From Acidisoma cellulosilyticum (GTDB taxonomy: Bacteria; Pseudomonadota; Alphaproteobacteria; Acetobacterales; Acetobacteraceae), in NCBI RefSeq assembly GCF_020621385.1, contig NZ_JAESVA010000003.1, forward strand, positions 496,001 through 560,000: DNA of 64,000 bases, given 5' to 3'. Below the pieces are notes generated by a model. The model did not search any database and was not told the DNA's origin. It saw only the letters and a list, made by a program, of their open reading frames with translations. Below, in pieces: positions 6,191 to 45,821 of the stretch. The translations under genes and the position numbers were made by a program. Position 1 is the first letter of the stretch. Each line of letters begins with the position of its first letter.

Positions 6191-6291
6191 GTCATCCGCG
6201 GCTTCATGCCGCGGACCTACCTCTCGCGGCGCCCGGACGCCGTTTGGGCGCCGCAAGCGGTAGATCCGCGCAACGAATGCGCGGACGACTA
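6191..6291. repeat. Solo core of multi-palindromic repeat, family A copy 1
   Basis: About 100 bases built from three consecutive hairpins: CCGCGG-N7-CCGCGG, a central GCGGCGCCC/GGGCGCCGC pair, and CCGCGC-N7-GCGCGG. The outer ends (GTCATCCGCG and CGCGGACGAC) are also complementary, so it could fold as a cloverleaf. The right end is followed by TA; that TA and the last element base form the TAG stop of the minus-strand methyltransferase. Confidence 0.8.
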
Positions 6292-6945
6292 AGCTTCGGC
6301 TCCCAGCCGAAACACCGTCACCGGCCGTTCCCGGGTATCCTCCAGCTCCAGCGTCGTCGGCACCATCATCCGCTCGATGACCGTCATGCCCTCGCGCGGC
6401 AGATAGGCGCGACCGGGATCGGCGACCCAGACCTCGGCCCCTGACCTGACCATGGCGCGCAGCCAGGGCAGAATATGCCCGGTCATCGGTGCCTCGTAAC
6501 AGACGTCCCCGCACAGGATCAGGTCCCAGCGGCAGGCGTCCCCCACCACATCCCGCGTTTCGGCCGTGACAATGACGCCATTCTCCGCCGCGTTCAGGCG
6601 GGTGGCGGCAATGGCCAGCGCATCGATCTCGGCCGCTTCCACCGACGCGGCACCGGCCATGGCGCAGGCGATCGCCGCCAGACCGCAGCCGGCCGCGAAG
6701 TCCAGCACGCGCTTGCCCGCGACCAGTTCGGGCCGGTCCAGCACGATACGCGCCAACGCCTGGCTGCCCGGCCAGGCGAAGGCCCAGAAGGGCGGCTCGA
6801 TCCCGGTCTCATGCAGCCAGGCTTCGGTCGCCTGCCAGATCGGCGTGATCTCGGTCGCAAGATAGAGCGGGATTTCCGGTACGATCGTCGCCGCGGACAG
6901 CGCCGTGTGCTGGCGCAGAAAGGCCTCTGCCTCGTCCAAGCCCAT
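6289..6945 (-). CDS. Class I SAM-dependent methyltransferase, ETFB-lysine-methyltransferase-like
   Basis: A 218-residue Rossmann methyltransferase with SAM motif I KRVLDFAAGCGLAAIA, an acidic VEAAEIDALA strand, and the N-terminal EIPLYLATEITPIWQATE plus PPFWAFAWPGSQALAR blocks found in relatives of the human ETF-beta lysine methyltransferase and of ribosomal-protein L11 methyltransferase. A protein-lysine substrate is likely by family; which protein is unknown. ATG 6945 overlaps the ubiA stop codon (ATGA), so the gene is translationally coupled downstream of ubiA; the longer in-frame start at 6993 would lie deep in ubiA. Its TAG stop sits at the edge of a dispersed repeat. Confidence 0.82.
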   Translation of the reverse strand: MGLDEAEAFLRQHTALSAATIVPEIPLYLATEITPIWQATEAWLHETGIEPPFWAFAWPGSQALARIVLDRPELVAGKRVLDFAAGCGLAAIACAMAGAASVEAAEIDALAIAATRLNAAENGVIVTAETRDVVGDACRWDLILCGDVCYEAPMTGHILPWLRAMVRSGAEVWVADPGRAYLPREGMTVIERMMVPTTLELEDTRERPVTVFRLGAEA

Positions 6946-7844
6946 CACAGCCGACCCGCCAGGAAGGACAAGGCCACGACCAGACCGACCCATTTATTGC
7001 TCTTGAACAGCGCGAGGCAAAGCGGCGGGTTGTTGACGTCCAGCCGCGTCACCTGCCGGGCCAGCAGCCAGGCCGCCAGAATGAGGACGACCAGAAACCA
7101 CAGCGACAGATGCGCCAGGCTGCCGGCCAAAAGCAGCAGCAGCAGCGTCAATCCGTAACACACGGCCAGGAACGGCACCGAGGTATTGGCGAATAGCCGC
7201 GCGGTGGACCGGACGCCGACCAGCGCGTCATCCTCTCGGTCCTGATGCGCATAGATCGTGTCATAGCCCAGGATCCAGAAGAAGACGGCGGCATAAAGGG
7301 CTGCGGCGGCTGGGCTGAATTGCCCGGTGGCCGCGACATAGCCCAGCGGCGCGCCGAAGCCGAAGGTGATGCCCAGCATCGCCTGCGGCCACCAGGTGAC
7401 GCGCTTGGCGGCGGGATAAAGCGCCACCAGAATCAGCGAGGAGACGCCCAGCAGCTGCGCCGCATGGTTGAGGCTAAGCAGGATGATCAGGCCGATCGCC
7501 AGCAGCAGCACCAGGAAAGCCGCCGCCTGTCGCATCGACAGCGCGCCCGAGGCCAGCGGCCGCCCGGCCGTGCGTTCCACCATGCGGTCGATCTTGCGAT
7601 CCCACATATCGTTCACGACGCAGCCGGCGCTGCGCATGACGACCGAGCCGATGCCGAACAGGATAATCAGGCGCAGGCTCTGCTCCAGCGGCGCGCGCGG
7701 CAGCAGAATGCTCCACAACCCGGGCAGGAACAGCAGCCAGGCGCCGATCGGGCGATCCAGCCTTGCCAGGATGACATAGGGGACGAGGCCGGCGGGGAGC
7801 TTGCCGACCCAGCCGTCACGCTCGATATCTGTATGCGCCGTCAT
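6945..7844 (-). CDS. ubiA: 4-hydroxybenzoate octaprenyltransferase
   Basis: UbiA prenylates 4-hydroxybenzoate in ubiquinone synthesis at the inner membrane. The protein has about eight hydrophobic helices and both Asp-rich motifs of the superfamily: NDMWDRKIDRMVERTAGRPL in the first loop and DTIYAHQDREDD in the second, plus the LDRPIGAWLLFLPGLWS start. Starting at ATG 7844 gives 299 residues. That codon overlaps the start codon of the divergent rsmE by two bases within the palindrome CATG, so the two genes share no intergenic DNA. A longer in-frame start at 7880 would overlap rsmE further. Confidence 0.93.
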   Translation of the reverse strand: MTAHTDIERDGWVGKLPAGLVPYVILARLDRPIGAWLLFLPGLWSILLPRAPLEQSLRLIILFGIGSVVMRSAGCVVNDMWDRKIDRMVERTAGRPLASGALSMRQAAAFLVLLLAIGLIILLSLNHAAQLLGVSSLILVALYPAAKRVTWWPQAMLGITFGFGAPLGYVAATGQFSPAAAALYAAVFFWILGYDTIYAHQDREDDALVGVRSTARLFANTSVPFLAVCYGLTLLLLLLAGSLAHLSLWFLVVLILAAWLLARQVTRLDVNNPPLCLALFKSNKWVGLVVALSFLAGRL

Positions 7845-8568
7845 GACAGATCCATCCGCCCCACCCGATTCCGGGTCCATTCGCCTTCACGTGCAAGCCG
7901 ATCTTGCGGCCGGCGCCCCTGTCCTATTGGACGAAGGCCAATCGCGCTACCTCGGCACAGTCATGCGCAAGACGGCCGGGGATGCCTTGCGGCTGTTCAA
8001 CGGCCGTGACGGCGAGTGGCGCGCCGTCATCGGCGAAATCGGCAAGCGCGGCGCGCGCCTGGAAGCCGAGACGCTGATCCGCCCTCAGGCGCCCGAACCC
8101 GATCTCTGGCTGCTGATCTCGATCATCAAACGCGATGCGCTGGAATGGGTGGTGGAGAAGGCGACCGAACTGGGCGTGTCCGTCATCCTGCCCGTCATCA
8201 CCCAGCGCAGCCAGCCGGCCCGCCCGAACGCGGAGCGCCTGCAGACCATCGCGACCGAAGCCGCCGAGCAATGCGAGCGCCTGACGGTGCCGATGGTGCG
8301 CGGCGTCCAGCCGCTTGACGGCTTGCTGCGGCAATGGCCCAATGCGCGGCCGCTGATCGCCGCCGTTGAACGGGACGATGTGGCACCGCCACCGCCGCAA
8401 ACTTCCTCCCCAGCAGCCCTGCTGATTGGGCCGGAAGGCGGCTTCGATCCCCGGGAGCTTGACGCCATGCGTAAGCTTCCCTTTCTTGTGCCTGCGTCTC
8501 TCGGCCCCCGCATCCTGCGGGCAGAGACCGCTGCTATCGTGGGTCTCGCCTTACTGCAGCGCCCATAG
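7843..8568 (+). CDS. rsmE: 16S rRNA (uracil(1498)-N3)-methyltransferase
   Basis: RsmE methylates N3 of U1498 in 16S rRNA. It is a SPOUT (knotted) methyltransferase of 241 residues: an N-terminal PUA-like region (GQSRYLGTVMRKTAGD), then ISIIKRDALEWVVEKATELGV, and the C-terminal trefoil-knot SAM loop LLIGPEGGFDPRELD with LGPRILRAETA. ATG 7843 leaves a short Pro/Ser-rich leader before IRLHV; no later ATG precedes the conserved core, so this start is preferred over the upstream GTG/ATG options. It is divergent from ubiA with overlapping start codons and is followed after 36 bases by the glutamate-cysteine ligase. Confidence 0.92.
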   Translation: MTDPSAPPDSGSIRLHVQADLAAGAPVLLDEGQSRYLGTVMRKTAGDALRLFNGRDGEWRAVIGEIGKRGARLEAETLIRPQAPEPDLWLLISIIKRDALEWVVEKATELGVSVILPVITQRSQPARPNAERLQTIATEAAEQCERLTVPMVRGVQPLDGLLRQWPNARPLIAAVERDDVAPPPPQTSSPAALLIGPEGGFDPRELDAMRKLPFLVPASLGPRILRAETAAIVGLALLQRP

Positions 8569-8604
8569 CCATTCTTGAACAACGACGCTTGAGCGGAACA
8601 GCCG

Positions 8605-9966
8605 ATGTCTAACCCCGGCGAGGGCGACCTCACCCCTATCGACGGCCTCAGCCAGCTTGCCGGCTATTTCGAAGCCGGCTGCAAGCCGGCGGAGAAATTC
8701 CGCATCGGCACGGAGCACGAGAAGTTCGGCTTCCGACGCGATGACCTGACCCCCCCGCCCTATGAGCCCGGCGGCATCCGCGCGATGCTGGAAGGGATCG
8801 GCGCGGACGGCTGGTCGCCCATTCTGGATAAGGGCCAGCCCATCGGCCTGACGCGCGACGGCGCCTCGGTCTCGCTGGAACCCGCCGGGCAGTTCGAACT
8901 GTCGGGCGGTCTCTGTCGGACCTTGCATGAAACCAAGGCCGAGCTTGACGCCCATCTGGCCGAGGTCCGCGCCGTTGCCGAACCGCTCGGCCTCGGTTTC
9001 GCGCCGCTCGGCTTTCATCCCCTGGCGACCCAGGCCGAGATGCCCTGGATGCCGAAAGGCCGCTACGGCATCATGCGCCGCTATATGCCCAAGGTCGGGA
9101 CGCGCGGGCTGGATATGATGACCCGCACCTGCACCGTGCAGGTCAATCTCGATTTCGCCAGCGAGACCGACATGGTGCGCAAGCTCCGCGTCAGCCTGGC
9201 GCTGCAATCCTTCGCGACCGCACTTTTCGCCAATTCCCCCTTCTATGAGGGCAAGCCGAATGGCGCGCTCTCCAACCGCGCTTTGGTCTGGACCGATACC
9301 GACAAAGCGCGGTCCGGCATTCCGGCGGTCGTCTTTGAGGAGGGTTTCGGCTTCGAGCGCTTTTCGGATTTCGCGCTCGATGTGCCGATGTATTTCGTCT
9401 ACCGCGACGGCCATTACATCGACACGGCCGGCGCCGCCTTCCGGGATTTCATGGCCGGCAAGCTGCCGGGTCTGGAAGGCCAATACCCGACCATGGGCGA
9501 TTTCGCCGATCACCTGACGACGATCTTCACCGATGTGCGCCTCAAGCGGTTTCTGGAAATGCGCGGCGCGGATGCGGGCTCGCCCGCCATGATGGGCGCC
9601 TTCTCTGCCTTCTGGGTCGGGCTTCTGTATGATGACGCGGCGCTGACCGCGGCCGAGGACCTGGTGCGCGGGCTGACGGCGGCCGACCTCATGGTCACGC
9701 GCGCGGCCGTGCCGACCCAGGGGCTGGACGCCCCCTGGCGGCAGGGCAAGCTGCGCGACCTCCTCAAACCCTTGCTCGCCATCGCGGATAGCGGCTTGGC
9801 GGCCCGTGGGCTGACCAATGCCGATGGCGCGGACGAGCGGATCCATCTGGACCCGCTGCGCGCCATCGCGGAAGGCGGCCCCACCCAGGCCGAGCATTGG
9901 CTGTCCCGATTTAAGGGCGCCTGGGGCGGCGACGTGCGGCCCATCTTCGCGGAAGCCGCGATCTGA
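8605..9966 (+). CDS. gshA: Glutamate-cysteine ligase, GCS2 (plant/alphaproteobacterial) type
   Basis: This enzyme makes gamma-glutamylcysteine, the first step of glutathione synthesis. The 453-residue protein shows the GCS2 blocks FRIGTEHEKFGF, GASVSLEPAGQFELSGG, RYMPKVGTRGLDMMTRTCTVQVNLDF and NSPFYEGKPNG. This type is characteristic of alphaproteobacteria and plants rather than the E. coli GshA type. The glutathione product is needed by the formaldehyde dehydrogenase at 32.6 kb. The gene lies between rsmE and a methyltransferase whose reading frame begins at or near its own stop codon. Confidence 0.94.
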   Translation: MSNPGEGDLTPIDGLSQLAGYFEAGCKPAEKFRIGTEHEKFGFRRDDLTPPPYEPGGIRAMLEGIGADGWSPILDKGQPIGLTRDGASVSLEPAGQFELSGGLCRTLHETKAELDAHLAEVRAVAEPLGLGFAPLGFHPLATQAEMPWMPKGRYGIMRRYMPKVGTRGLDMMTRTCTVQVNLDFASETDMVRKLRVSLALQSFATALFANSPFYEGKPNGALSNRALVWTDTDKARSGIPAVVFEEGFGFERFSDFALDVPMYFVYRDGHYIDTAGAAFRDFMAGKLPGLEGQYPTMGDFADHLTTIFTDVRLKRFLEMRGADAGSPAMMGAFSAFWVGLLYDDAALTAAEDLVRGLTAADLMVTRAAVPTQGLDAPWRQGKLRDLLKPLLAIADSGLAARGLTNADGADERIHLDPLRAIAEGGPTQAEHWLSRFKGAWGGDVRPIFAEAAI

Positions 9967-10772
9967 CCGACAGTTCCGATATTTTCGACCGCGCGGCGGT
10001 CCGCCGTCACCGCGCACGCGCGGCAAGGACGGTTTCCGACGTCGCGCCGGTGCTTGAAGACGTCGCCGACCGGCTGCTGGACCGCGTGACGGAAACGACG
10101 CGGCATTTCACCGCCGCACTCGATATCGGCGGGCGCGGCATCATCGCGCCGCGTCTGCGCGCCATGGGCATCCCGACGGTCGCCATGGACCTCTCTGCCG
10201 AAATGGCCGCACTCAGCGGCGCGCCCTATCTGGCGGCCGACGAGGAGCTGCTGCCCTTCGGGCCGGGCAGTTTCGATCTCGTCGTCGCCAGTCTGTCTCT
10301 GCATTGGGTGAATGATCTGCCGGGCGCGCTGATCCAGATCCGCCGCGCGATGCGGCCGGACGGGCTGCTGCTCGCCAGCCTGCCACTGCTCGGGACACTG
10401 GATGAATTGCGGCGCGCCTTGACCGAGGCCGAGGCCGAATTGCGTGGCGGCGTCAGCCCACGCATCTCGCCCTTCCCCGAGCTCCGCGACTGCGCCGGGC
10501 TTCTGCAGCGCGCGGGCTTCACCTCGCCGGTCGCGGATCAGGAGGAGATCGAATTGCTCTACGGCAATCCGCTGGCGCTGCTGCGCGACCTGCAGGCGGC
10601 CGGTGAGCGCAATGCCATCCGGCAGCGGAGCCATAGGCCCGCACCAGCGGCTTTGTTTCCGTCAGCGCTGATGCGCATGCCGACCAATGCCGAAGGCCGC
10701 CTGCGGGTGACGCTGAAGCTCGGCATGATGACGGCCTGGTCCAGCCCCGGCGCATCAGCGCCGGCGCATTAG
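9963..10772 (+). CDS. BioC/NDUFAF5-like SAM-dependent methyltransferase
   Basis: A Rossmann methyltransferase with FTAALDIGGRGIIAPRL (SAM motif I), LPFGPGSFDLVVASLSLHWVNDLPGALIQI and GLLLASLPLLGTLDELR, the pattern of NDUFAF5 and BioC relatives. NDUFAF5 hydroxylates an arginine of complex I subunit NDUFS7 in mitochondria; the bacterial role is unproven. Homologues begin with a short sequence ending IFDRAAVRRHRARAA, encoded here directly after the gshA stop, but the only initiator-like codon in front is CTG 9963, overlapping gshA (CTGA). GTG 9999 or GTG 10050 are conventional alternatives that lose part of that motif. The TAG stop is formed at the edge of a mobile repeat. Confidence 0.8.
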   Translation: MTDSSDIFDRAAVRRHRARAARTVSDVAPVLEDVADRLLDRVTETTRHFTAALDIGGRGIIAPRLRAMGIPTVAMDLSAEMAALSGAPYLAADEELLPFGPGSFDLVVASLSLHWVNDLPGALIQIRRAMRPDGLLLASLPLLGTLDELRRALTEAEAELRGGVSPRISPFPELRDCAGLLQRAGFTSPVADQEEIELLYGNPLALLRDLQAAGERNAIRQRSHRPAPAALFPSALMRMPTNAEGRLRVTLKLGMMTAWSSPGASAPAH

Positions 10773-10936
10773 AGTCAGTCAGGTTTAGTTGGAAACGCCC
10801 CAGAATCTGTCGCCCGCGGCCTCGTGCCGCGGGTCTACCGGTTCCGGCGCCCATACGCCGATGTGGCGCCGCGGGGGGGTAGGTCCGCGCAACAAGTGCG
10901 CGGATGACGAATTTATCTATTAAAACCTGACCAACT

Positions 10937-10939
<3 letters not shown>
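10770..10939. mobile_element. MITE-like element, family A full copy (170 bp)
   Basis: Bounded by TA at 10770-10771 and 10938-10939. Inside the TAs are imperfect terminal inverted repeats, GAGTCAGTCAGGTTT on the left and AAACCTGACCAACTT on the right (12 of 15 match when inverted). The centre holds the multi-palindromic family A core. There is no coding frame for a transposase. Both neighbouring convergent genes end in it: the methyltransferase stop TAG and the ligA stop TAA each use the flanking TA plus one element base. Confidence 0.75.
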
Positions 10940-14715
<3,776 letters not shown>

Positions 14716-14743
14716 GGCGCCTATCCAGCCACAGGATCGAGGA

Positions 14744-15661: not shown

Positions 15662-15725
15662 TGTCGGCGACTTATACCATTCCATGGCTTGCGCGAAGAC
15701 CCTTAACGCCTTGGGGCGGAGGCCG

Positions 15726-16301
15726 CTACCGGCTACCGCCGGGAACCCAGGCCACTTCGCGACCCGAACCGGCATTCAGCGCCCGGCTGAGGACGAAAAG
15801 GTGATCTGACAGACGGTTGAGATAGCGGATCGCGAGCGGGTTGACGGGTTCCTGGGCGGCCAGTGCTACGACCAGTCGCTCGGCCCGGCGGGTGATGGTG
15901 CGGGCGAGATGGGCAAAAGCGGCGGCCGGCGTGCCGCCCGGCAGGACGAAGCTGGTCAGCGGCGGCAGGTCCGCGTTCATGGCCTCGACCTCCGCCTCCA
16001 GCCGCAGAATGGCGTTTTCCTCTATCCGCAGACGGCTGCGTGCGGAGGGTTCGTCTCCCTCAGGCGCGCAAAGATCGGCGCCAAGATCGAACAGGTCGTT
16101 CTGGATCAGGCCGAGCATGGCGTCTTCCGTCGGATGGTCCGCCGTATGCAGGCGAATGAGGCCGATGGCGGCATTGGCTTCGTCGACGGTGCCGAAAGCC
16201 TCGACCCTCAGCGCGTCTTTGCGGACACGCGCCCCCGTGCCCAGAGAGGTCATGCCTTCATCGCCGCCGCGGGTCACCACCCGGTCGATCCGGATCGTCA
16301 T
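15726..16301 (-). CDS. Cob(I)yrinic acid a,c-diamide adenosyltransferase, PduO type
   Basis: This enzyme transfers the 5'-deoxyadenosyl group of ATP to cob(I)alamin to make coenzyme B12. The PduO-type N-terminal signature TRGGDEGMTSLGTGARVRKD is present, followed by VEAFGTVDEANAAIGL and the C-terminal ARTITRRAERLVVAL and YLNRLSDHLFVLSRALN helices. At 191 residues it is a normal single-domain enzyme. It is transcribed towards bamD, 64 bases away, and divergently from the ZapE-like ATPase. No other cobalamin gene is in view. Confidence 0.93.
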   Translation of the reverse strand: MTIRIDRVVTRGGDEGMTSLGTGARVRKDALRVEAFGTVDEANAAIGLIRLHTADHPTEDAMLGLIQNDLFDLGADLCAPEGDEPSARSRLRIEENAILRLEAEVEAMNADLPPLTSFVLPGGTPAAAFAHLARTITRRAERLVVALAAQEPVNPLAIRYLNRLSDHLFVLSRALNAGSGREVAWVPGGSR

Positions 16302-17713: not shown

Positions 17714-17883
17714 TAGAGTCCGTCAGGTTTAGGTAGAAACGCCACTAAATCTGTCGTGCGCGGGCCCCGACCCGCGCATCTACCCGGCGGAGCAAGCAAT
17801 CGGCCGGCTGGGCGCCGCGGTGGGTAGGTCCGCGCAACAAGTGCGCAGATGACAAATTATCTATTAAAACCTGACAGGCTCTA
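17714..17883. mobile_element. MITE-like element, family A full copy (170 bp)
   Basis: Bounded by TA at 17714-17715 and 17882-17883, exactly the length of the copy at 10770. Its terminal repeats, GAGTCCGTCAGGTTT and AAACCTGACAGGCTC, match at 13 of 15 positions when inverted. The core contains CGCGGGCCCCGACCCGCG and a right arm GTCCGCGCAACAAGTGCGC shared with the 10770 copy. The TAG stop of the minus-strand glycosyltransferase is the right-hand TA plus the last element base. Confidence 0.78.
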
Positions 17884-18981
17884 AGCCCTGAGCCCCTGCG
17901 GCAGACGAGCCGTTGTGAAACCCTTCGGTTTCTGAGCGGATTTGCGCGACGCAATGGGCACCAGATTGTTCAGGAACATGGTGCTCGCCGCCGACCAGGA
18001 GAAGCGCTCCGCGAAGCGGCGGCAGGCCGAGCGATCGGCCGTCAGCGCCGCCATGGCGGCAATCCGCAGATCCTCGTCAAGCTTGCCCACGGCAGGCTCG
18101 ACACCGCCCAGGATGTCGCGCGGGCCGGGCACGGGATAGGCCGCCACGGGCGTGCCGCAAGCCAAAGCCTCCAGCATCACCAGCCCGAACGTATCCGTCC
18201 GGCTGGGGAAGACGAAGACATCGGCCGAGGCATAGGCGCGGGTCAGCGCCGTGCCGGACAGCATGCCGGTGAAGCGCGCATCCGGGTAACGCCGCTGAAG
18301 CCCGGCGCGATCCGGCCCGTCACCGACGACAAGCTTCGATCCGGGCAGATCGAGGGACAGGAAGGCTTCGATATTCTTCTCGACCGCCAGACGGCCGGCA
18401 TAGAGGAAGACCGGCCGCACCAGCCCTTCCGTCTCCTGCCGCAGCTCGGGCGTGAAGCCGGCCGTGTCCACGCCCCGCGTCCAATGGCAGACATTGGCGA
18501 AGCCGCGACCGGACAATTCCTTGATCAGGCTCGGCGTCGCCGCCATGACGGCAGATCCCGCGCCATGGAAGGAGCGGATCCAGCGATAGACCATGCGTTC
18601 GGTCCAGGCGCGCGGAAAGGGCAGCCGGGCCGCCACATATTCCGGAAAACGCGTATGGAAGGACGTCGTGAAGGCATAGCGCTCAACCCGCGCCCAGCGC
18701 CGCGCGGACAGGCCCAGCGGCCCCTCGGTCGCGATATGCAGCGCGTCGGGCTTGAACTCCCGCAGCATCTTATGCAGCCGCTGGCCCGGCAGCAGGGCCA
18801 GGCGGATTTCCGGATAAAAGGGGCAAGGCAGGGTGCGGAAGCGGTCGGGCCCGAAGACCTCGACCTCGATCCCACGGCTGCGCAGCTCGGCCACCAATTG
18901 GCCCAGGCTGCGGACCACGCCATTGACCTGCGGATGCCAGGCATCCGAGATGATGGCAACGCGCTGGGGCCAACCCGTCAT
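17881..18981 (-). CDS. Glycosyltransferase family 4 (GT-B), Agt-like
   Basis: A 366-residue GT-B glycosyltransferase: N-terminal VAIISDAWHPQVNGVVRSLGQL acceptor domain, then the GT4 donor-binding region with FLYAGRLAVEKNIEAFLSL and the E-x7-E-like block PSRTDTFGLVMLEALACGTPVAAYPVPGP. It overlaps the upstream metallophosphoesterase by four bases (ATGA), so the pair is co-translated. This pairing is the arrangement of PlcP and Agt, which replace phospholipids by glycolipids under phosphate starvation in several alphaproteobacteria; that role is inferred from context. A mannosyl- or glucosyltransferase for another lipid or polysaccharide remains possible. The stop codon TAG is formed at the edge of a mobile repeat. 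Confidence 0.85.
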   Translation of the reverse strand: MTGWPQRVAIISDAWHPQVNGVVRSLGQLVAELRSRGIEVEVFGPDRFRTLPCPFYPEIRLALLPGQRLHKMLREFKPDALHIATEGPLGLSARRWARVERYAFTTSFHTRFPEYVAARLPFPRAWTERMVYRWIRSFHGAGSAVMAATPSLIKELSGRGFANVCHWTRGVDTAGFTPELRQETEGLVRPVFLYAGRLAVEKNIEAFLSLDLPGSKLVVGDGPDRAGLQRRYPDARFTGMLSGTALTRAYASADVFVFPSRTDTFGLVMLEALACGTPVAAYPVPGPRDILGGVEPAVGKLDEDLRIAAMAALTADRSACRRFAERFSWSAASTMFLNNLVPIASRKSAQKPKGFTTARLPQGLRA

Positions 18982-28565: not shown

Positions 28566-28731
28566 CGTCATCCGCGTGCTGGTCACGCGGACCCACTCAT
28601 CGTGGCGTTTCGGCGGCGGCCCCTTCTATGGTCGTCCCCGCGCTTGTCGCGGGGATCTACCCAGCGCGGCGCCCTGACGGTGTTCGCGCGCCAAAGCGGG
28701 TAGACCCGCGGAACGAGTCCGCGGGCGACTA
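28566..28731. repeat. Family A repeat: half unit plus complete core
   Basis: A hairpin beginning GTCATCCGCGTGCTG (from 28568) is followed by a full core at about 28631-28729, CCCCGCG-N4-CGCGGGG at the left and CCCGCGG-N7-CCGCGGG at the right, ending GCGAC and TA. Only the core is present; there is no GTCAGGTTT terminal repeat. Confidence 0.72.
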
Positions 28732-28739
28732 AAATGCAA

Positions 28740-32509: not shown

Positions 32510-32610
32510 GTCATCCGCGCATTTATTGCGCGGACCTACCCCTCACGGCGCCCAAACACCGTCGCGGCGCCACAACGGGTAGATGCGCGGCATGAAGCCG
32601 CGCACGACAG
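32510..32610. repeat. Solo core of family A repeat
   Basis: GTCATCCGCGC-N8-GCGCGGAC at the left, a central GCGCC-based pair, and TGCGCGGCATGAAGCCGCGCACGACAG at the right form the three-hairpin core. It lies between the AI-2E transporter and the formaldehyde dehydrogenase, which converge on it. A 10-base direct repeat (ATCAATCGTC) precedes it. Confidence 0.75.
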
Positions 32611-36132: not shown

Positions 36133-39100
36133 TTGCCCGCCCGGGTCGCCCGTCTACGCATCGCGGGGTTCAAAAGCTTCGCCGATTCGACCAGCGTCGA
36201 GATTTTGCCGGGCCTGACCGGCATCATCGGTCCGAACGGCTGCGGCAAATCCAATATCGTCGATGCGCTGCGATGGGCGATGGGTGAGGGCAATGCCCGC
36301 TCGCTGCGCGGCGGAGAGATGGATGACATCATCTTCGCCGGCACGACGACGCGCCCCTCCCGCAATATGGCGGAAGTTACCGTCACGCTGGAGGATGCGC
36401 TCGGCATCATTCCGCCGCCGCTGCATGAGCAGTCGGAGCTGGAGATTACCCGCAAGATCGAGCGCGGCGCGGGCAGTGGCTATCGCATCAACGGGCGCGA
36501 AATGCGCGCCCGCGACGTGCAGACGCTGTTCGCGGATATGGCGAGCGGCGCACGCAGCTGTGCCATGGTCGGCCAGGGCCGGGTCGCGGCCATCGTCAAT
36601 GCCAAGCCGGAAGAGCGGCGGCAGATTCTGGAGGAGGCCGCCGGCATCGCTGGCCTCTCCGCCCGCCGGCATGAGGCCGAGCTGAAGCTCCGTGCGACGG
36701 AAGGCAATCTGCAACGCGCCGAGGATATGCGCGGGCAGGTGGAAATTCAGCTGCAGGGCCTGCAGCGTCAGGCCCGTCAGGCCGCCCGCTACCGCAATAT
36801 TTCCGGCCTCATCCGCGCCAGCGAGGCCGAATTCCTGGCCATCCAGCATCTGCGGGTCGAGCGCGCCCGCGAAGCCGCGCGCCTCGCGCTGGATGAGGCG
36901 AAGATCAAAGCCGCGGAAGCGGCGGAAGCCAATCGCGTCGCCGAACAGGCGCATGGCCAGGGCCATGACATTCTCCCGGCGCTCCGCGCGGCGGAAGCCG
37001 AAGCCCGCACGGCGCTGGAACGCCAGCGCGTCGCCAGCGAACAACTGGCCGCCGAGGAAGCGCGCGCGAAAGCCGCCATCGGCGCCGCGACCCAACGTTT
37101 GGAGCAGGCGCTGCGCGATCTCGGCCGCGCCGAAGGCATGATGCGGGACGCGGCCGAGGCCGAACAGCGCCTGGGCGCCGAGGACGCGACCCTCGCCGCC
37201 GCGGAAGCCGAGGCCGAAGCGAAACTGGCCGAAGCCGTTGCTGCCATGACCCGCGCGGCCGAGGTCGCGCGTGACGCCGAAGCGACCGCCCAGGCCGCGA
37301 CTGAACGCAATGCGGCGCTGACCGCGACCGCCCAGGCCATGACCGGCCGGCTGTCCCAGGCCGAGCAGCGCGCCCGCCGTGTCGGTGAGCAGGTGGCCCG
37401 CCTTTCGATCGAGCGGGATCGCCTGGCGCAGGACCTCATCGCGCCGGACAAGCTCGCCGAAGCGAAACAATCGGCCGAAACGGCCGAGGCCGCGCGCAAG
37501 GAAGCGGCCGCCCGGTTGGAAACTGCCGAACGCGGCCGCGTGACGGCACAGGCGGCGCTGACCAAGGCCCGCGAACAGGCCAATACGGCGGAAGCGGCAG
37601 CGACCAAACTCGGCGCCGAAATCCGCGCGCTGAACGAAGTGTTGAGCGTCGGCGGCACCCAGGGTGGTCCGCAGCTGGTCGATGAACTGACCGTGCCGGC
37701 CGGTCTGGAAGCGGCCCTTGGTGCGGCTTTCGGTGAGGAACTCAGCGCCTCCGCCGGCCGCGAAGCCGCGCGCTATTGGCGGGAATTGCCGCCCATCGAC
37801 GGCAGCGCCGTCATGCCCGCAGGCTGCCAGCCGCTGGGCGAGGTGGTACAGGGTCCGCCCGCGCTCGCCCGGGCGCTCGCTCATATTCTTCTTGCCCCGG
37901 CCGACGCCGCCCCGGGTCTTCAGGCCGATTTGAAACCCGGCCAGATCATCGTCTCCGCCGAAGGTGGCGTCTGGCGTTGGGACGGCTATACCGTCCGCGC
38001 CGGCACGCCGACAGCCGCGACCGTGCGCCTGACCCAACGCAACCGCCTGCGCCGCCTGCGCGAAGATGGTGCGACCGCCGATCAGGCCACCAGTGAAGCG
38101 AAAGCCAAGCAGGAGGCCGCGCAGACGGCGGACCGCGCGACGGTCGCCGAGGAACAGGCCGCCCGCAACGCGCGTCGTGAAGCCGATCAGGCGGCCGAAC
38201 GGCTGCGCAATACGGCCGCCGCCTTGGCCACCCGTGCCGCCGCCGCCGAACAGCGGCTGGCCGGTGTCGTCTCCCAATTGGAAGCCGCCCAGCCGGAAAA
38301 GACCGAGGCTGACGCGGCGCTGGCTGGCATTCGCGAGGAAGCCGCCGCCCTCCCCGATCTGTCCGCCATGCGCGCTGAGGTGGAGACCGCCCGCAGCGCG
38401 CTGCAACTGGCGCGGCGGGAGGAAGGCGACAGCCGCACCCGGCATGACGGGTTGACGCGCGACCGCGCGACCCGCGCCCAGCGGCGGCAGGCTTTGGCAA
38501 AGGAACGGGAGGGCTGGGCCGAACGCGCCGAGGCCGCCAAAACCCATAGCGCCGATCTCGATCAGCGGCGGCAGGACGCGGCCACGGACCACGCCGCCTT
38601 GGCCGCTGAGCCTGAGCGGCTGGCGACGGCGCGCGCCGCGCAGACATCCGAACTCGCGGAAGCCGGAACGGTGCATCAGCAGGCGGCCAGTCGCTTGAAG
38701 ACGGCCGAGGACGAAGCCCGCGCCGCCGAAAAGGCTTCCCGCGCTGCCGAGACCGCTCAGGCCCTGACGCGCGAGAACCTCGTCCGCGCCGAAAGTGCCG
38801 TGGAACAGGCGAACCATGCCTGGGGCACGGTCGCCGAGCGCATTCTGGAACGGCTGGGCGCGGAGCCTGCTTTCCCCGAAATCACGGCCGAGCCGAGCCA
38901 GGAGAATGAGGACAAGGCCCGCCGCCGGTTTGAGCGTCTGACCAAGGAGCGGGACGAGATGGGTCCGGTGAACCTGCGGGCAGAGCTGGAATCCGAGGAG
39001 ATCACCCGCCAGATCGAGCTGATCGATCGCGAAAAGGGTGACCTTGTCGCGGCCATCGCCAAGCTGCGCGGCTCGGTCGGGCATCTGAACCGCGAAGGCC

Positions 39101-39606
39101 GCGAACGACTGTCGACCGCCTTCGCGGAAATCGACAAGAACTTTCAGGCCTTCTATGCGCGCATGTTCGGCGGCGGTCGCGCCCATCTGGCCCTCGTCGG
39201 GTCCGATGATCCGCTGGAAGCCGGGCTCGAAATCTACGCCCAGCCGCTGGGCAAGAAACTCTCCACGCTATCCCTGCTGTCGGGCGGCGAGCAGGCGCTG
39301 ACCGCGCTTTCCCTCATCTTCGCGGTCTTCCGCAGCAATCCGGCGCCGCTCGCGGTGCTGGATGAGGTCGATGCGCCGCTGGATGACGCGAATGTCGAGC
39401 GGCTTTGCACCTTGCTGAACGAAGTCGTGAAGGAAACCGGCACGCGCTTCATGGTCGTGACCCATCACCATCACACCATGGCGCGGATGGACCGGCTCTA
39501 TGGCGTCACCATGATGGAACGCGGCGTCTCCCGCCTGCTGTCGGTCGATCTCAACCGTGCGGTCGCGATGACGGAGCAACCGCCGCCGCGTATGGCGGCA
39601 GAATAG
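36133..39606 (+). CDS. smc: Chromosome segregation protein SMC
   Basis: SMC is the ATPase of the condensin complex. The 1157 residues have the head halves at the two ends: Walker A IIGPNGCGKSN (near residue 35) and, at the C-terminus, signature LLSGGEQALTAL, Walker B LAVLDEVDAPLDD and VVTHHHHTM. Between lie two Ala/Glu/Arg-rich coiled-coil arms and a hinge around residues 510-610 (GGPQLVDELTVPAGLEAALG). The start is TTG 36133, just after the dsbA-like stop; there is no ATG before the conserved RLRIAGFKSF. The 3' end is partly duplicated in the following spacer. Confidence 0.94.
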   Translation: MPARVARLRIAGFKSFADSTSVEILPGLTGIIGPNGCGKSNIVDALRWAMGEGNARSLRGGEMDDIIFAGTTTRPSRNMAEVTVTLEDALGIIPPPLHEQSELEITRKIERGAGSGYRINGREMRARDVQTLFADMASGARSCAMVGQGRVAAIVNAKPEERRQILEEAAGIAGLSARRHEAELKLRATEGNLQRAEDMRGQVEIQLQGLQRQARQAARYRNISGLIRASEAEFLAIQHLRVERAREAARLALDEAKIKAAEAAEANRVAEQAHGQGHDILPALRAAEAEARTALERQRVASEQLAAEEARAKAAIGAATQRLEQALRDLGRAEGMMRDAAEAEQRLGAEDATLAAAEAEAEAKLAEAVAAMTRAAEVARDAEATAQAATERNAALTATAQAMTGRLSQAEQRARRVGEQVARLSIERDRLAQDLIAPDKLAEAKQSAETAEAARKEAAARLETAERGRVTAQAALTKAREQANTAEAAATKLGAEIRALNEVLSVGGTQGGPQLVDELTVPAGLEAALGAAFGEELSASAGREAARYWRELPPIDGSAVMPAGCQPLGEVVQGPPALARALAHILLAPADAAPGLQADLKPGQIIVSAEGGVWRWDGYTVRAGTPTAATVRLTQRNRLRRLREDGATADQATSEAKAKQEAAQTADRATVAEEQAARNARREADQAAERLRNTAAALATRAAAAEQRLAGVVSQLEAAQPEKTEADAALAGIREEAAALPDLSAMRAEVETARSALQLARREEGDSRTRHDGLTRDRATRAQRRQALAKEREGWAERAEAAKTHSADLDQRRQDAATDHAALAAEPERLATARAAQTSELAEAGTVHQQAASRLKTAEDEARAAEKASRAAETAQALTRENLVRAESAVEQANHAWGTVAERILERLGAEPAFPEITAEPSQENEDKARRRFERLTKERDEMGPVNLRAELESEEITRQIELIDREKGDLVAAIAKLRGSVGHLNREGRERLSTAFAEIDKNFQAFYARMFGGGRAHLALVGSDDPLEAGLEIYAQPLGKKLSTLSLLSGGEQALTALSLIFAVFRSNPAPLAVLDEVDAPLDDANVERLCTLLNEVVKETGTRFMVVTHHHHTMARMDRLYGVTMMERGVSRLLSVDLNRAVAMTEQPPPRMAAE

Positions 39607-39710
39607 TCGGATCGCGCATGGCGGCGGAATAATCTGCGCGCGCCGGGACGTTGATCGGATCGGGGCGCGTGCTATCAGTTCCCGGCGCTTAAGGCTTGGG
39701 GATCGGGCGA

Positions 39711-40490
39711 ATGACGGACGTGACTGAGACGAACGAAAAGCTGACGACCGAAGACGCGGTGCCGGCTCACTTGCCCGCGGCCGCGGCGGCGCCCGACCAC
39801 GACATGACGCTCGGCGAAAAACTCATCGCAGCCGATATCGCGATCCCCGAGGACGAAACACCCGCCGAGACGGTGGTTGCGGAACCGCCTGCGCCGAAAG
39901 TGTTTCCCTATGATCTGGAAAGCGCCGAACTCGCCCGCGCATTCCTTCATGCCCGCACGCCCAGCGCCTGGACCGACCGGCAGATCGACGAAGAGACCTA
40001 TCGGCACCTTTACGACCTTGTGAAGCTGGGCCCGACCTCGGCCAATACCTCCCCCATGCGGCTGGTCTTCGTCCGCAGCCCGGAGGCGAAGGAACGTCTC
40101 CGCACCGCGCTGACGCCCGCCAATGTGGAAGCGGTGATGACAGCCCCCGTCACGGTGATCGTCGCCTTCGACCCGTCCTTTTATGATTTTCTGACGCGCC
40201 TTTATCCGCAGGCCGATGCCCGGCCCTGGTTCGCCTGGAATGACGAATTCTCCCAGGAAACCGCGATACGCAATAGCAGCCTGCAAGGCGGCTATCTGAT
40301 CATGGCCGCGCGCCTGCTGGGTCTTGATTGCTGGCCGATGTCGGGCTTCGACAATGCGCGGGTCGATGCGCTGTTCCTGGACGGGCGCGGCTGGCGCTCC
40401 AATTTCCTGCTCGGCCTCGGCTATGCCGAGACCGTGGCCACGGCGCGGAACACGCGTCTTATGTTCGAAGAAACCTGCGAGGTCATCTGA
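39711..40490 (+). CDS. Nitroreductase-family oxidoreductase, RutE/malonic semialdehyde reductase-like
   Basis: An FMN-dependent nitroreductase-fold protein. The catalytic part starts near residue 80 (ARAFLHARTPSAWTDRQIDEE, then LVKLGPTSANTSPMRLVFVRS) and ends with GFDNARVDALFL and SNFLLGLGYA, as in RutE/HadB-type 3-hydroxypropionate dehydrogenases of pyrimidine breakdown. The first 65 or so residues are an acidic, Ala/Pro-rich extension not found in RutE. ATG 39711 is the start. No other rut gene is nearby, so the in vivo substrate is uncertain. Confidence 0.82.
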   Translation: MTDVTETNEKLTTEDAVPAHLPAAAAAPDHDMTLGEKLIAADIAIPEDETPAETVVAEPPAPKVFPYDLESAELARAFLHARTPSAWTDRQIDEETYRHLYDLVKLGPTSANTSPMRLVFVRSPEAKERLRTALTPANVEAVMTAPVTVIVAFDPSFYDFLTRLYPQADARPWFAWNDEFSQETAIRNSSLQGGYLIMAARLLGLDCWPMSGFDNARVDALFLDGRGWRSNFLLGLGYAETVATARNTRLMFEETCEVI

Positions 40491-40575
40491 TTTCATGGCA
40501 GGGCGCTATGACATCGGCCAATGGGATCGGGGTTAGGCATTGGCCCCGCCCTTGGCCTATGCTAGCCCCCGTTCC

Positions 40576-41025
40576 ATGACACTACCGCTCATCGCCGTTC
40601 TGAACGGCCCCAATCTGAATATGCTCGGCCTGCGTCAGCCCGAAGTCTATGGCTCGGCGACGCTGGACGATGTCGAGCAGCTTTGCGCCGAAACCGCCGA
40701 AGGCCTTGGTTTTGCGATCGATTTTCGCCAGACGAACAGCGAAGGCGAGCTGATATCCTGGGTGCAGGAATGCCGCGGCCGCGCCAGCGGCATCGTCATC
40801 AACCCGGCGGGGTTGAGCCATACCTCCATCTCCCTGATGGATGCGCTATTGTCAGCCGAACTCCCGGTCGTGGAAGTTCACATTTCTAATATCCATCGCC
40901 GTGAGCAATTCCGGCATCTCTCTTATATTTCCAAGATAGCAACGGGTGTGCTGTGCGGTTTCGGAACACATGGCTACGCCCTGGGTTTGATCGCGATGGC
41001 ACGGATTCTGGAGGGCGGGCAATGA
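40576..41025 (+). CDS. aroQ: 3-dehydroquinate dehydratase, type II
   Basis: AroQ dehydrates 3-dehydroquinate in the shikimate pathway. The 149-residue protein has LNGPNLNMLGLRQPEVYG (catalytic Tyr), FRQTNSEGELISWVQEC, INPAGLSHTSISLMDALL and EVHISNIHRREQFRHLSY, all diagnostic. ATG 40576 is preferred to an earlier in-frame start at 40540. It overlaps accB by four bases (ATGA), giving the common alphaproteobacterial aroQ-accB-accC operon. Its pathway partner aroC is at 2.4 kb. Confidence 0.96.
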   Translation: MTLPLIAVLNGPNLNMLGLRQPEVYGSATLDDVEQLCAETAEGLGFAIDFRQTNSEGELISWVQECRGRASGIVINPAGLSHTSISLMDALLSAELPVVEVHISNIHRREQFRHLSYISKIATGVLCGFGTHGYALGLIAMARILEGGQ

Positions 41026-41486
41026 ACCGGATGTCTTTTGATCCTGAGGATATTCGCGAGCTCGCGGCCATTCTCGACGAGACCGGCCTCAGCGAGATCG
41101 AGATCTCGGAAAAGGACCGCCGCATCCGTATCGTCCGCGCGGCAGCCCCCGTGACCTACGGTCTGGCGCCGGCCGCCGCAGCAGCAGCCCCGGTCGCCGC
41201 TGTCGTGCCGGTCGCGGCCCCCGTCGCGGCGCAGGCGCTCGATGCCAGCCATCCCGGTGCGGTCACCAGCCCCATGGTCGGCGTCGCCTATCTGTCGCCC
41301 GACCCGGAAAGCCCGAATTTCGTCTCCGTCGGCCAGCGCGTCGAAGCCGGCCAGACCCTGCTTCTGATCGAGGCCATGAAGACCTTCAATCAGATCAAGG
41401 CGCCGCGCGGCGGCACCGTTTCCCAGATCATCATCGGCAGCGGGGCACCGGTGGAATTTGGCGAAGTCCTGTTGATTCTGGACTGA
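41022..41486 (+). CDS. accB: Acetyl-CoA carboxylase, biotin carboxyl carrier protein
   Basis: AccB carries biotin between the carboxylase and the transferase in malonyl-CoA formation. The 154-residue protein has an N-terminal helical domain (DPEDIRELAAILDETGLSEIEI), an Ala/Pro/Val-rich linker (residues 41-75) and the C-terminal biotinyl domain with attachment lysine K120 in IEAMKTFNQI. ATG 41022 overlaps the aroQ stop. It is followed after five bases by accC, so the three genes should be co-transcribed. Confidence 0.96.
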   Translation: MNRMSFDPEDIRELAAILDETGLSEIEISEKDRRIRIVRAAAPVTYGLAPAAAAAAPVAAVVPVAAPVAAQALDASHPGAVTSPMVGVAYLSPDPESPNFVSVGQRVEAGQTLLLIEAMKTFNQIKAPRGGTVSQIIIGSGAPVEFGEVLLILD

Positions 41487-41491
41487 TCCAG

Positions 41492-42831
<1,340 letters not shown>

Positions 42832-42835
<4 letters not shown>

Positions 42836-43485
42836 GGCAAAGGCCATGGCGGACAGGCTTGATCGCTTTCGGTCTTTGCCTGTTGCCCGTCATGGCCGCC
42901 GCTGATTTTTCCCTGGCCTGGCCGAATACCCAGGCCAATCGGACCGAGGCTGGCAATCGCCTCGCCCGTCTGCAGCAGGCGCTGTCGCAGGAGCCCAGCG
43001 CCACGCTGGTGCTGACACGCTGGTGCGCTGACTATCACCTCGCCCCTGTCCCGAAAATCATCGCCCTGCGGGTCGAAGGCCAGCCGAAAGCGGCCCCCGA
43101 CAGCGTGCGGCATAACCTGCAACTCGCACCGGGCGAGGCGCTGGGCTATCGGCGGGTTCAGCTTTTCTGCGGCGATCACATTCTCTCGGATGCCGATAAC
43201 TGGTACGTGCCGGATCGCCTGACGCCCGCCATGAACGGGCTGCTGGATCATACCGACACGCCCTTCGGTCTCGCCGTGCGCAGCCTGCATTTCCAGCGCC
43301 GGACCATCAGCAGCGAGCGGCTATGGGCGCCGCTGACCAGCCAGACCGGCGGCTCGCTCGCTATCCCCGAGCATGTGCTGCGCAATGTCGGCCTGCTGAC
43401 AACCCCCGGCGGGCAACCCATATCGCAGGTCGTCGAAAGCTATACCGGGGCGGTGTTAGGAACGGCTCTCAATTCCGCCCCCTGA
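42832..43485 (+). CDS. Exported protein, chorismate-lyase-like fold
   Basis: A 217-residue protein with a signal peptide (residues 1-24, LIAFGLCLLPVMAAA). Its middle has YRRVQLFCGDHILSDADNWYVP and LDHTDTPFGLAV, which recall the CGD and late PLG blocks of chorismate pyruvate-lyase (UbiC) folds. The residues needed for chorismate lyase cannot be confirmed, and the apparent export would place it outside the cytoplasm, so enzymatic function is open. It is coupled to accC by an ATGA overlap. Confidence 0.72.
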
Positions 43486-43614
43486 TCGTCCGACCATTCG
43501 CATTTTGCCAATCTCGGACAGCGAATTGTGGGTAGCGCCTGCGCGGATCAAGGCGCAAGAATGGCCGATAAAATCAAATGATCAGTCCCGCAACAGGGGC
43601 TGGGGGACCCGACC

Positions 43615-45159
43615 ATGCTGAACACGCTTTCGTCCACCATGCATCTCAACCTGCTCGACAATGTCGTCATCGCCCGTGTGGAAATCCCGCAAGGCACCAA
43701 GCTGCCGGACCGCGGGGTAACGGCGGGGCAGCGCATTCCGCGCGGCCACAAGATGGCGCTGACGGCTATTCCCAAGGGCGAACCGATCCTCCGCTACGGC
43801 CAGGTCATCGGCTTCGCCAAGGCGGATATCGCGCCCGGCGACCATATCCATGTCCATAACTGCGAAATCCATGAATTCGCGCGCGACCATGCCTTCGGCG
43901 TCGATGCGAAGCCCACCGTCTATATCCAGCCGCAGGCGACGTTTCAGGGCATCATCCGCGCCGACGGCCGGGTCGCGACCCGCAATTACATCGGCATCCT
44001 GACCTCGGTGAACTGCTCGGCCGGCACCGCGCGTTATGTGGCCGAAGCCTTCCGCCGCAATCCCTTCACCGGGGACCAGGGGCTGCTCGCGGACTATCCG
44101 AATATCGACGGGGTCGTGGCGCTGACCCACAAGACCGGCTGCGGCATGGCGATCGCGGGTGACGGCATGGATACGCTCCGCCGCACCATCGCGGGCTATG
44201 CAAGCCACGTGAATTTTGCCGCCGTGCTGATCATCGGCCTGGGCTGCGAAACGAACCAGATCGGCCCGATCATGCAAAGCCGCGGCATCCAGCCCAGCGC
44301 CAAGATGGCGACCATGATCATTCAGGAGACCGGTGGCGCCCGCAAGACGGTCGAGGCCGGCATCGCGAAGGTCTGCGAATTGCTGCCCGAGGCCAATGCC
44401 GTGACCCGCGTCACGGTCCCGGCCTCGCATCTCAATGTCGCCCTGCAATGCGGCGGGTCGGACAGCTTTTCGGGCCTCACAGCCAACCCCGCCCTTGGCT
44501 ATGCCTCGGACCTCATCGTCCGCCACGGCGGGACAGTGGTACTGACCGAGACGACCGAGATCTATGGCGCCGAGCATCTGCTGACGCGCCGCGCCGTCTC
44601 GCCCGAAGTCGGCCAGAAGCTGCTCGACCGGCTGACCTGGTGGGAAGAATACACCCGCCGCAATGGCGGGGAGATCGATAACAACCCCTCCCCCGGCAAC
44701 AAGGCCGGCGGCCTGACGAATATCGTCGAGAAGTCGCTCGGTGCTGTCGCCAAGGCCGGCACCACCAATCTTGTCGACGTGGTCGGCTATGCCGATCCGG
44801 TGACGGAGAAAGGTCTGGTCGTCATGGACGGGCCAGGCTTCGATCCGGTCTCGGCCACCGGCCAGATTGCGGGCGGGTGCAACGTGCTGTGCTTCACCAC
44901 CGGTCGCGGCTCGGTCTTCGGCTGCAAGCCGACGCCGTCGCTCAAACTCGCGACCAATACGCCGCTCTATGATCGGCAGCCGGACGACATGGACATCAAT
45001 TGTGGCACCATCGCAGACGGCGTGGAAACGGTGGAGGAATGCGGCCAGCGCATTTTCGAAACCATCCTGCGCATCGCGTCCGGCGAGCGCACCAAAAGCG
45101 AAGAGATCGGTTTTGGGGATGACGAATTCGCGCCCTGGCAGCTCGGGGCGACCGTGTGA
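43615..45159 (+). CDS. UxaA-family sugar-acid dehydratase (altronate/galactarate dehydratase-like)
   Basis: This 514-residue protein has an N-terminal SAF domain (VVIARVEIPQGTKLPDRGV, GDHIHVHNCEIHE) followed by the large UxaA/GarD catalytic domain: GVVALTHKTGCGMA, LIIGLGCETNQI, CGGSDSFSGLTANPALG and NPSPGNKAGGLTNIVEKSLG. Such iron-dependent enzymes dehydrate altronate, galactarate or related acids; the substrate cannot be read from the sequence. Together with the arabinose/galactose dehydrogenase at 59.3 kb it suggests sugar-acid catabolism. It ends in a four-base overlap (GTGA) with a SufU-like gene. Confidence 0.88.
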   Translation: MLNTLSSTMHLNLLDNVVIARVEIPQGTKLPDRGVTAGQRIPRGHKMALTAIPKGEPILRYGQVIGFAKADIAPGDHIHVHNCEIHEFARDHAFGVDAKPTVYIQPQATFQGIIRADGRVATRNYIGILTSVNCSAGTARYVAEAFRRNPFTGDQGLLADYPNIDGVVALTHKTGCGMAIAGDGMDTLRRTIAGYASHVNFAAVLIIGLGCETNQIGPIMQSRGIQPSAKMATMIIQETGGARKTVEAGIAKVCELLPEANAVTRVTVPASHLNVALQCGGSDSFSGLTANPALGYASDLIVRHGGTVVLTETTEIYGAEHLLTRRAVSPEVGQKLLDRLTWWEEYTRRNGGEIDNNPSPGNKAGGLTNIVEKSLGAVAKAGTTNLVDVVGYADPVTEKGLVVMDGPGFDPVSATGQIAGGCNVLCFTTGRGSVFGCKPTPSLKLATNTPLYDRQPDDMDINCGTIADGVETVEECGQRIFETILRIASGERTKSEEIGFGDDEFAPWQLGATV

Positions 45160-45611
45160 CGGCAGCCTCCACGATCAGGGCCTCCGCCGAGGACATCTAC
45201 CAGGCGGTCATCATGGATCGGGCCAGGCGGCCGCGACATCAGCGGCTGCTGGTGGCTGCAGCCGTTGAAGCCGAGGCGCGCAATCCGCTCTGCGGCGACC
45301 GAGTTATGGTGCAGCTCTGTTTTTCCGAGGATGGCCGGGTCACGTCATTCGGCTATCGGGCGCGGGCCTGCGCCATCTGCTTGGCCGCGACCGATCTGAT
45401 GGCGGAGATCCTTCCCGGCCTGGATGAAACCGGCATCGGCCAGGCTGCCTCGGCCTTCGAATCCGCGCTCCGGACCGGAGAGCGGATTCCGGCAGACAGT
45501 TCTATTGCGGCATTGACGCCCTTTGCGCCGCTGCATGACACGCCGTCGCGCATCCAATGTGCGCTGCTCGGCTGGCAGGCGGTCAGCGCCGCCCTCGCCC
45601 AGCGGCGATAG
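45156..45611 (+). CDS. SufU/IscU-like Fe-S cluster scaffold protein
   Basis: A 151-residue IscU-fold protein with the scaffold residues C46 and D48 in NPLCGDRV, C72/C75 in RACAICLAA, and C135 in SRIQCALLGW. The RACAIC-LAA form is closer to SufU than to IscU. GTG 45156 overlaps the dehydratase stop, so the two are translationally coupled. It may deliver an iron-sulfur cluster to the iron-dependent dehydratase or be a general scaffold; the sequence does not decide. There is no sufB, sufC or sufS gene in view. Confidence 0.85.
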   Translation: MTAASTIRASAEDIYQAVIMDRARRPRHQRLLVAAAVEAEARNPLCGDRVMVQLCFSEDGRVTSFGYRARACAICLAATDLMAEILPGLDETGIGQAASAFESALRTGERIPADSSIAALTPFAPLHDTPSRIQCALLGWQAVSAALAQRR

Positions 45612-45652
45612 CAATCGCGACCGGCTGGCATCCGATCAAACCTGACGGAGAC

Positions 45653-45821
45653 TAGAGTCTGTCAGGTTTTAATAGATAATCCGTCATCCGCGCACTTGTT
45701 GCGCGGACTGACCCGCCGCGGCGCCCAGACGGCCGTTTGCCTGCACGCCAGGGTAGATGCGCGGCATGAAGCCGCGCACGACAGATTTGGGAACGCTTCC
45801 GATCAAACCTGACGGAGACTA
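45653..45821. mobile_element. MITE-like element, family A full copy (169 bp, reverse orientation)
   Basis: Bounded by TA at 45653-45654 and 45820-45821. Left end GAGTCTGTCAGGTTTTAATAG, right end AAACCTGACGGAGAC; the core lies between. Compared with the 10770 and 17714 copies it is inverted (the AATAGAT stretch is on the left). An extra copy of the right end (45631-45654) abuts its left side. The TAG stop of the Rrf2 gene is the right TA plus the last element base. Confidence 0.78.

Follow-up and report, generated by a model that had tools for sequence, protein, structure and literature searches.

Why should several genes of one genome end exactly where a repeated sequence begins? The question is raised by a stretch of 64,000 nucleotides from Acidisoma cellulosilyticum (contig NZ_JAESVA010000003.1, positions 496,001 to 560,000 of the forward strand), referred to below as the window, in which stop codons were found to be composed of a flanking TA and the outermost base of a repeat. 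The repeat proved to be a small mobile element resembling a miniature inverted-repeat transposable element (MITE), mostly 157-194 nt long, with inverted ends GAGTCYGTCAGGTTT and a TA duplicated at the target. All 64 copies with a complete duplication lie in the word YTAR (Y, pyrimidine; R, purine). When the element was removed and the flanks rejoined, 40 of these 64 fell on a stop codon, vs 119 of 952 non-coding background YTAR sites (odds ratio 11.7, p = 7e-19), and none lay within a called gene. The explanation favoured here, which we consider probable, is a YTAR-targeted MITE whose insertions are filtered by selection and are silent in stop codons.

An earlier note on this DNA had described five such junctions in four elements, the TA being the flank and the third base of the stop belonging to the repeat. 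This composition was seen at 10770-10772, 10937-10939, 17881-17883 and 45819-45821, that is, at four junctions of three elements (10772-10937, 17716-17881 and 45655-45819), which have inverted ends and flanking TA in common. The fifth junction, at 6289, belongs to a different repeat, treated in the last section. The features are the following:

10772..10937, plus strand: MITE copy of type B, 166 nt, target TTAG, with ends GAGTCAGTCAGGTTT and (reverse complement) AAGTTGGTCAGGTTT
10770..10772, plus strand: TAG stop of a BioC-like methyltransferase (10050-10772), made of the TA flank and the element's first base G
10937..10939, minus strand: TAA stop of ligA (10937-13018), made of the TA flank and an A from the element
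17716..17881, plus strand: MITE copy of type B, 166 nt, target CTAA, with paired ends and flanking TA
17881..17883, minus strand: TAG stop of a glycosyltransferase (17881-18981, minus), seen at the edge and in the rejoined flanks
45655..45819, minus strand: MITE copy of type B, 165 nt, target CTAA, with paired ends and flanking TA
45819..45821, minus strand: TAG stop of an Rrf2 regulator (45819-46271, minus), seen at the edge and in the rejoined flanks
45638..45652, minus strand: leftover end of a second copy, adjoining the 45655-45819 copy across a shared TA (45653-45654)

At the rejoined 10772-10937 site the stops of the methyltransferase and of ligA use one and the same TA.

The repeat family and its target

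Matches to the ends at two mismatches or fewer numbered 87 + 88 in the 6.0 Mb genome, vs 22 + 11 for a reversed-pattern control, and the 17716-17881 copy used as a query gave at least 41 matches, of which 40 exceeded 110 bases in length, with 40 of the 185 candidates being scored. The sequences read were the window and 71 further stretches, chosen among the end matches listed and the type B query matches listed; copies beyond those listings were counted only if they lay in the same stretches. A strict two-ended pattern was dropped because it missed even known copies, and the pairing of ends into copies demanded at least one flanking TA. Among the matches listed, pairing of the ends yielded 74 copies (139-225 nt) in the 72 stretches; TA flanks both sides of 64 and one side of 10.

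Type A, of about 157 nt, is represented by 29 copies of 156-158 nt, whose identity to the consensus is 96% on average and 62% at the lowest; its second end is GAGTTTGTCTGATTT, and one type A end carries GAGTT. Type B falls into length classes near 165 (22 copies), 180 (5) and 193 nt (13), and five copies have other lengths. Both types contain a palindrome inside the ends, and the consensus sequences can be folded as RNA over most of their length (a folding made without a shuffled control). The window gave no match in Rfam at gathering scores, and type A gave none in the plasmid collection.

The first base of the element was G at 139 of 148 edges, A at 7 and T at 2, a purine thus being present at 146. 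At the 99 edges that adjoin no stop the counts were G 92, A 5 and T 2. Since purines come first at both kinds of edge alike, the base that restores the stop is a property of the family and not peculiar to stop sites. The ends mostly start with GAGTC, and TAGAGTC was read at 84 of the 148 edges. GAGTC fits the sequence GANTC, named as a methylation site in PMC2229807; that methylation governs transposition is a guess.

The target was read in all 64 complete copies as YTAR, namely CTAA in 23, CTAG in 20, TTAG in 16 and TTAA in 5, with a pyrimidine ahead of the left TA and a purine behind the right TA in every case. The left and right tetramers differ, which shows that the duplication consists of TA alone; a four-base duplication was rejected on the same ground. 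No strong consensus was found beyond YTAR in the eight bases on either side, the flanking GC content being 62% vs 54%. In a first background set (G+C 62%), YTAR made up 559 of 2426 non-coding TA sites, and it occurred 239 times in 392,703 bases of called genes vs 559 times in the other 71,297 bases. It follows from this target that any codon starting with the TA must be a TAA or TAG stop.

Two copies were found at four places to adjoin across one shared TA (45638-45655 in the window, L053 2752/2755, L069 4160/4163 and L098 2589/2592). The abutting pairs look as if a newer copy had entered the CTAG made at the edge of the older one.

Stop codons and convergent gene ends

As the sequence stands today, one gene or more stops exactly at an edge in 45 of the 74 copies, and in four of these a gene does so on each side. 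Genes were called with a simple home-made finder, which was also applied to the flanks rejoined after removal of the element and to the background sites. On rejoined flanks 43 of the 74 copies fall on a stop, involving 47 genes; the rejoined stop is TAG in 36 of these and TAA in 11, compared with TAG in 45 and TAA in 2 today.

The ten copies with an incomplete TA duplicate were excluded from the enrichment, gap, regression and threshold counts. Besides the 40 copies at stops, the 64 complete ones comprise 24 intergenic copies and none in coding sequence or between divergent genes. The corresponding background, taken over 862 kb, comprises 119 YTAR sites at stops, 833 intergenic sites (169 of them between divergent genes) and 460 coding sites. 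If insertions were drawn at random from all YTAR sites, the absence of coding copies among 64 would have p = 1e-11; two further copies, each lacking one TA, were scored as coding on rejoined flanks. At four gene-calling thresholds the stop share was 0.62, 0.61, 0.52 and 0.34, vs 0.125, 0.114, 0.089 and 0.067 in the background, an excess of five- to sixfold throughout, the strictest threshold leaving 22 of 64 copies and 75 of 1125 background sites at stops. An excess of stop-codon junctions, which the earlier note had proposed to look for, was found among the matches listed, with non-coding YTAR sites as the reference.

The copies are also concentrated between convergent genes, where 39 of the 64 lie, vs 100 of the 952 non-coding background sites. 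In convergent gaps 31 copies are at stops and 8 intergenic, compared with 33 and 67 background sites (31/39 vs 33/100, p = 1e-6); in tandem gaps the copies number 9 at stops and 15 intergenic, compared with 81 and 436, and between divergent genes 0 compared with 169. When the YTAR sites in the gap around each copy served as its reference (n = 63, one further copy without a gene on both sides being left out here and in the regression below), 33.8 stop insertions were expected and 40 observed. Random choice of a convergent gap with YTAR and then of a site in it gave a stop share of 0.525 (47/86 gaps) vs 31/39 observed, and the same procedure in tandem gaps gave 0.305 vs 9/24. The target word and the choice of gap can account for much of the stop excess, YTAR being rare in genes and the copies sitting mainly at convergent 3' ends.

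The sister species and the choice of explanation

A congener (G004) was used for comparison, orthologues being accepted at 70% protein identity or more with the C-terminus covered (actual identities 74-96%). Among the G004 loci compared, such an orthologue was present for 30 of the 47 stop genes, 17 being without one. The C-terminal length was equal in 21 of the 30 pairs, compared with 123 of 134 control genes without an element, and the G004 stop was TAR in 17 and TGA in 13. Control genes with TAR here had kept it in G004 in 31 of 51 cases (in 14 of 31 where a pyrimidine precedes the stop), and those with TGA here had TAR in 9 of 83. Together, the C-terminal lengths and the TAR usage indicate that most insertions appear to have struck an existing TAR stop, so that the ancestral stops, judged from the sister species, would have been TAR. 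The comparison of C-termini suggested in the earlier note thus came out in favour of insertion into stops that the element restores, as do the rejoined flanks, where the same codon reads TAA or TAG; the part that needs amending is the target, which is YTAR and not the stop as such.

Rejoined sites could be aligned with G004 across the TA for 11 of the 74 copies, and the TA was present in five, most clearly at L040 and L070. In the window, the G004 glycosyltransferase has an equal C-terminal length, a TAG stop and one undivided TA at the site; the Rrf2 regulator has the same C-terminus in four congeners, and in G004 its last residue is likewise unchanged, the stop there being TGA. Two relatives among the named genomes, sought through LigA, showed 54-62% identity and were too distant for site comparison.

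None of 119 other genomes, G004 included, contained the 17-base end without a mismatch. At two mismatches or fewer, the search of ten genomes gave 12 + 13 ends in G004 (control 1), 1 + 1 in G003 and 1 + 1 in G018. Of the 25 places in G004, 24 were readable, one lying too near a contig start, and at 10 of the 24 the end of the diverged copy adjoins a stop exactly on the side examined, a count made without a separate G004 background; both places in G003 gave none. Only one of the 30 G004 orthologues has such an end at the same gene, which suggests that the G004 copies are mostly separate insertions. In one pair (L064 2586 here, L269 1795 / L324 in G004) orthologous genes end at such an element in both species, either by one old shared insertion or by two separate ones.

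From these data the following course of events may be proposed. A non-autonomous DNA transposon inserts at the TA of YTAR and duplicates that TA, being moved, as we infer, by a trans-acting transposase. A codon that opens with TA and continues with a purine is always a TAA or TAG stop, and since YTAR is much rarer per base within the genes of this GC-rich genome than outside them, stops preceded by a pyrimidine would make up much of what can be targeted at gene 3' ends. With ends that nearly always begin with G, the coding sequence would be left unchanged and the stop rebuilt, usually as TAG; where two convergent genes have one TA in common, both stops would be rebuilt together. Selection would then have removed coding and divergent insertions, leaving copies at gene 3' ends and chiefly between convergent genes. 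The phrase "so that damage is avoided", used in the earlier note, implies design; the data show that a gene with such an insertion stays essentially intact.

Several results weigh against this explanation. Genes missed by the simple finder inflate the intergenic background. Within the 23 informative gaps, 14 stop insertions were observed vs 7.8 expected (convergent p = 0.013, tandem p = 0.14), and in the remaining 40 of 63 gaps the YTAR sites are all stops or none, so that the gap test says nothing there and cannot show that passive choice suffices. In a regression with terms for convergence, flanking GC, gap length and tetramer, divergent sites being excluded, the odds ratio was 4.3 (2.1-9.0) for stops, 5.6 (3.2-12) for convergent position, 1.37 (1.06-1.75) per 10% of flanking GC and 0.95 (0.45-1.87) for CTAG, and the stop itself may still be preferred two- to fourfold, subject to gene-calling errors. 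Nine of the 30 orthologue pairs differ by 1-13 residues, vs 11 of 134 controls. The other six of the 11 aligned G004 sites show TG, TC, TT or gaps, and at the ten stop ends of G004 a pyrimidine precedes TA seven times and a purine three times, the YTAR target being less strict there. At 10772-10937 the G004 orthologues end earlier than here, the methyltransferase by 8 residues with TGA and ligA by 6 residues with TAA, and the old stop positions receive no confirmation from the sister species. Finally, an autonomous partner was sought in this genome (59 contigs) among two families only, and the 4 DDE_3 and 6 DUF4096 matches lacked matching ends.

The residual preference could reflect active targeting, in which the transposition complex would prefer gene 3' ends or stops beyond YTAR, guided perhaps by supercoiling where transcripts converge or by a wider sequence context. 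The odds ratios for stops and for convergent position, the excess of stops in convergent and in informative gaps, and the state of type A, whose high identity presumably marks it as young and which already has 15 stops among 28 complete copies, all speak for this possibility. We nevertheless regard it as doubtful. In many gaps the stop is the sole YTAR, which forces a stop insertion once the gap has been chosen; in tandem gaps by themselves an excess is not evident (9 of 24 vs 6.9 expected); the sequence past YTAR has no strong consensus, only a somewhat higher flanking GC; and the convergent bias could come from selection alone. The stronger proposition, that the machinery actively favours stops or convergent gene ends beyond YTAR and that the ends evolved their leading G to rebuild the stop, appears unlikely.

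Selection might also act positively, copies at 3' ends being kept because their palindrome insulates convergent genes or stabilises transcripts. The convergent excess and the foldable consensus would suit such a benefit, which we consider improbable all the same: an advantage at the 3' end does not demand position zero, no intrinsic terminator pattern was present in 10700-11000, the sole stretch scanned, and the two element ends face the stop gene about equally (24 vs 20, with 3 unassigned).

It is very improbable that the stops are made by the element itself, through shortening or lengthening of genes or through a change of TGA into TAG. The C-termini that differ from G004 and the orthologues that stop with TGA, with the methyltransferase and ligA as cases in the window, would fit this view, but the rejoined flanks already have an in-frame TAA or TAG, and TAR is about as frequent in the G004 orthologues as in those of untouched TAR genes and well above its frequency in those of TGA genes. 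Conversion of TGA into TAG by the element is disfavoured by the same G004 stop usage. An artefact of gene calling, in which TA plus G yields TAG in one frame and spurious reading frames end there, can be dismissed almost entirely: short low-scoring frames do occur among the calls (e.g., of 84 and 96 residues), but the same finder was applied to background and rejoined flanks, the excess persists at the strictest threshold, and most of the stop genes have a G004 orthologue, usually ending at the same residue.

The YTAR-targeted, selection-filtered MITE would thus illustrate that a transposon bound to a four-base target can persist in a compact, GC-rich genome while apparently costing its host little, the leading purine of its ends making insertion into a stop codon silent even for two convergent genes. 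A testable rule for where such elements gather would combine a TA target, a preceding pyrimidine, purine-first ends and high GC, and annotation should expect gene ends that are partly built of mobile DNA.

Affinities of the element and the bare palindromes

In its short length, terminal inverted repeats, many copies and target site duplication the family agrees with a MITE; an autonomous partner with matching ends was not found among the DDE_3 and DUF4096 matches. The IS630/Tc1-mariner group agrees with it in the duplication of TA. IS630 prefers CTAG, a preference not seen here, CTAA being commoner, and the DDE_3 matches of this genome are without such ends. For the IS5 family, to which IS711 belongs, and its IS711-like group, of which DUF4096 is a mark, the TA duplication within YTAR agrees in all 64 complete copies, and matching ends are lacking at the DUF4096 matches. 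The element is accordingly described as a YTAR-specific MITE. Partial IS630-type transposase matches occur on three small contigs (C26, C29 and C31; L122-L125); in C26 the match lies in two parts on either side of an open reading frame of 377 residues, which looks to us like an IS110-type transposase.

Among known systems, IS711 of Brucella is described as duplicating TA within a YTAR target (PMC2266754, PMC3163539), like the present element; it is likewise alphaproteobacterial and has been reported to insert in palindromic repeats. It differs in being 842 bp long with its own overlapping open reading frames, and a word search of the main texts of both papers did not return "stop codon". IS5 is also stated to use YTAR (PMC10359306). 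MITEPsy1 of Pseudomonas syringae, a 100-nt MITE at CTAG or YTAA listed as "IS5?" (PMC3189936), duplicates four bases, in contrast to the TA alone duplicated here. RUP of the pneumococcus has 107 bp, inverted ends, a TA target and 108 intergenic copies, with IS630-Spn1 as the proposed mover (PMC2229807), and its reported bias is for regions with insertion sequence (IS) elements, not for stop codons. The CIR repeats of Caulobacter and Brucella, intergenic, alphaproteobacterial and of about 110 bp, are described as two arms with GANTC in the loop (PMC2229807), whereas GAGTC stands at the outermost tip of the present element. QMITE2 of Coxiella, located at the enhC 3' end and affecting its stop (PMC5896051), concerns a single gene, which the element has made longer in one strain, and not a family-wide seat in stop codons. 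No report of a MITE family seated in stop codons was found in the titles and passages of mainly open papers, which is weak evidence of absence, and the main text of a 2024 review of prokaryotic MITEs (PMC10969869) did not return "stop codon" in a word search.

The repeat at the fifth junction of the earlier note is the following:

6191..6289 (about), no strand assigned: bare palindromic repeat, not this MITE, whose edge adjoins the TAG stop at 6289-6291

The stop codon is real; the repeat lacks both the ends GAGTCYGTCAGGTTT and a TA at its far edge. Among 33 starts of bare-type hairpins in the window and 40 background stretches, TA precedes two and a stop adjoins one, namely that at 6289, and the bare palindrome was rejected as a stop-seeker on this count. 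The junction looks like a coincidence, because in G004 the same gene stops with TGA and a similar palindrome follows at a distance of 9 nt. Bare palindromes starting with GTC[A/G]T and without inverted ends occur in the window at 6191-6289, 28567-28734 and 32510-32608. Types A and B enclose a palindrome of this kind, and it is mainly this inner part that the type B query matched in G003 and G004. The inner palindrome of types A and B may perhaps be the reason why the repeat at 6289 had been grouped with them.

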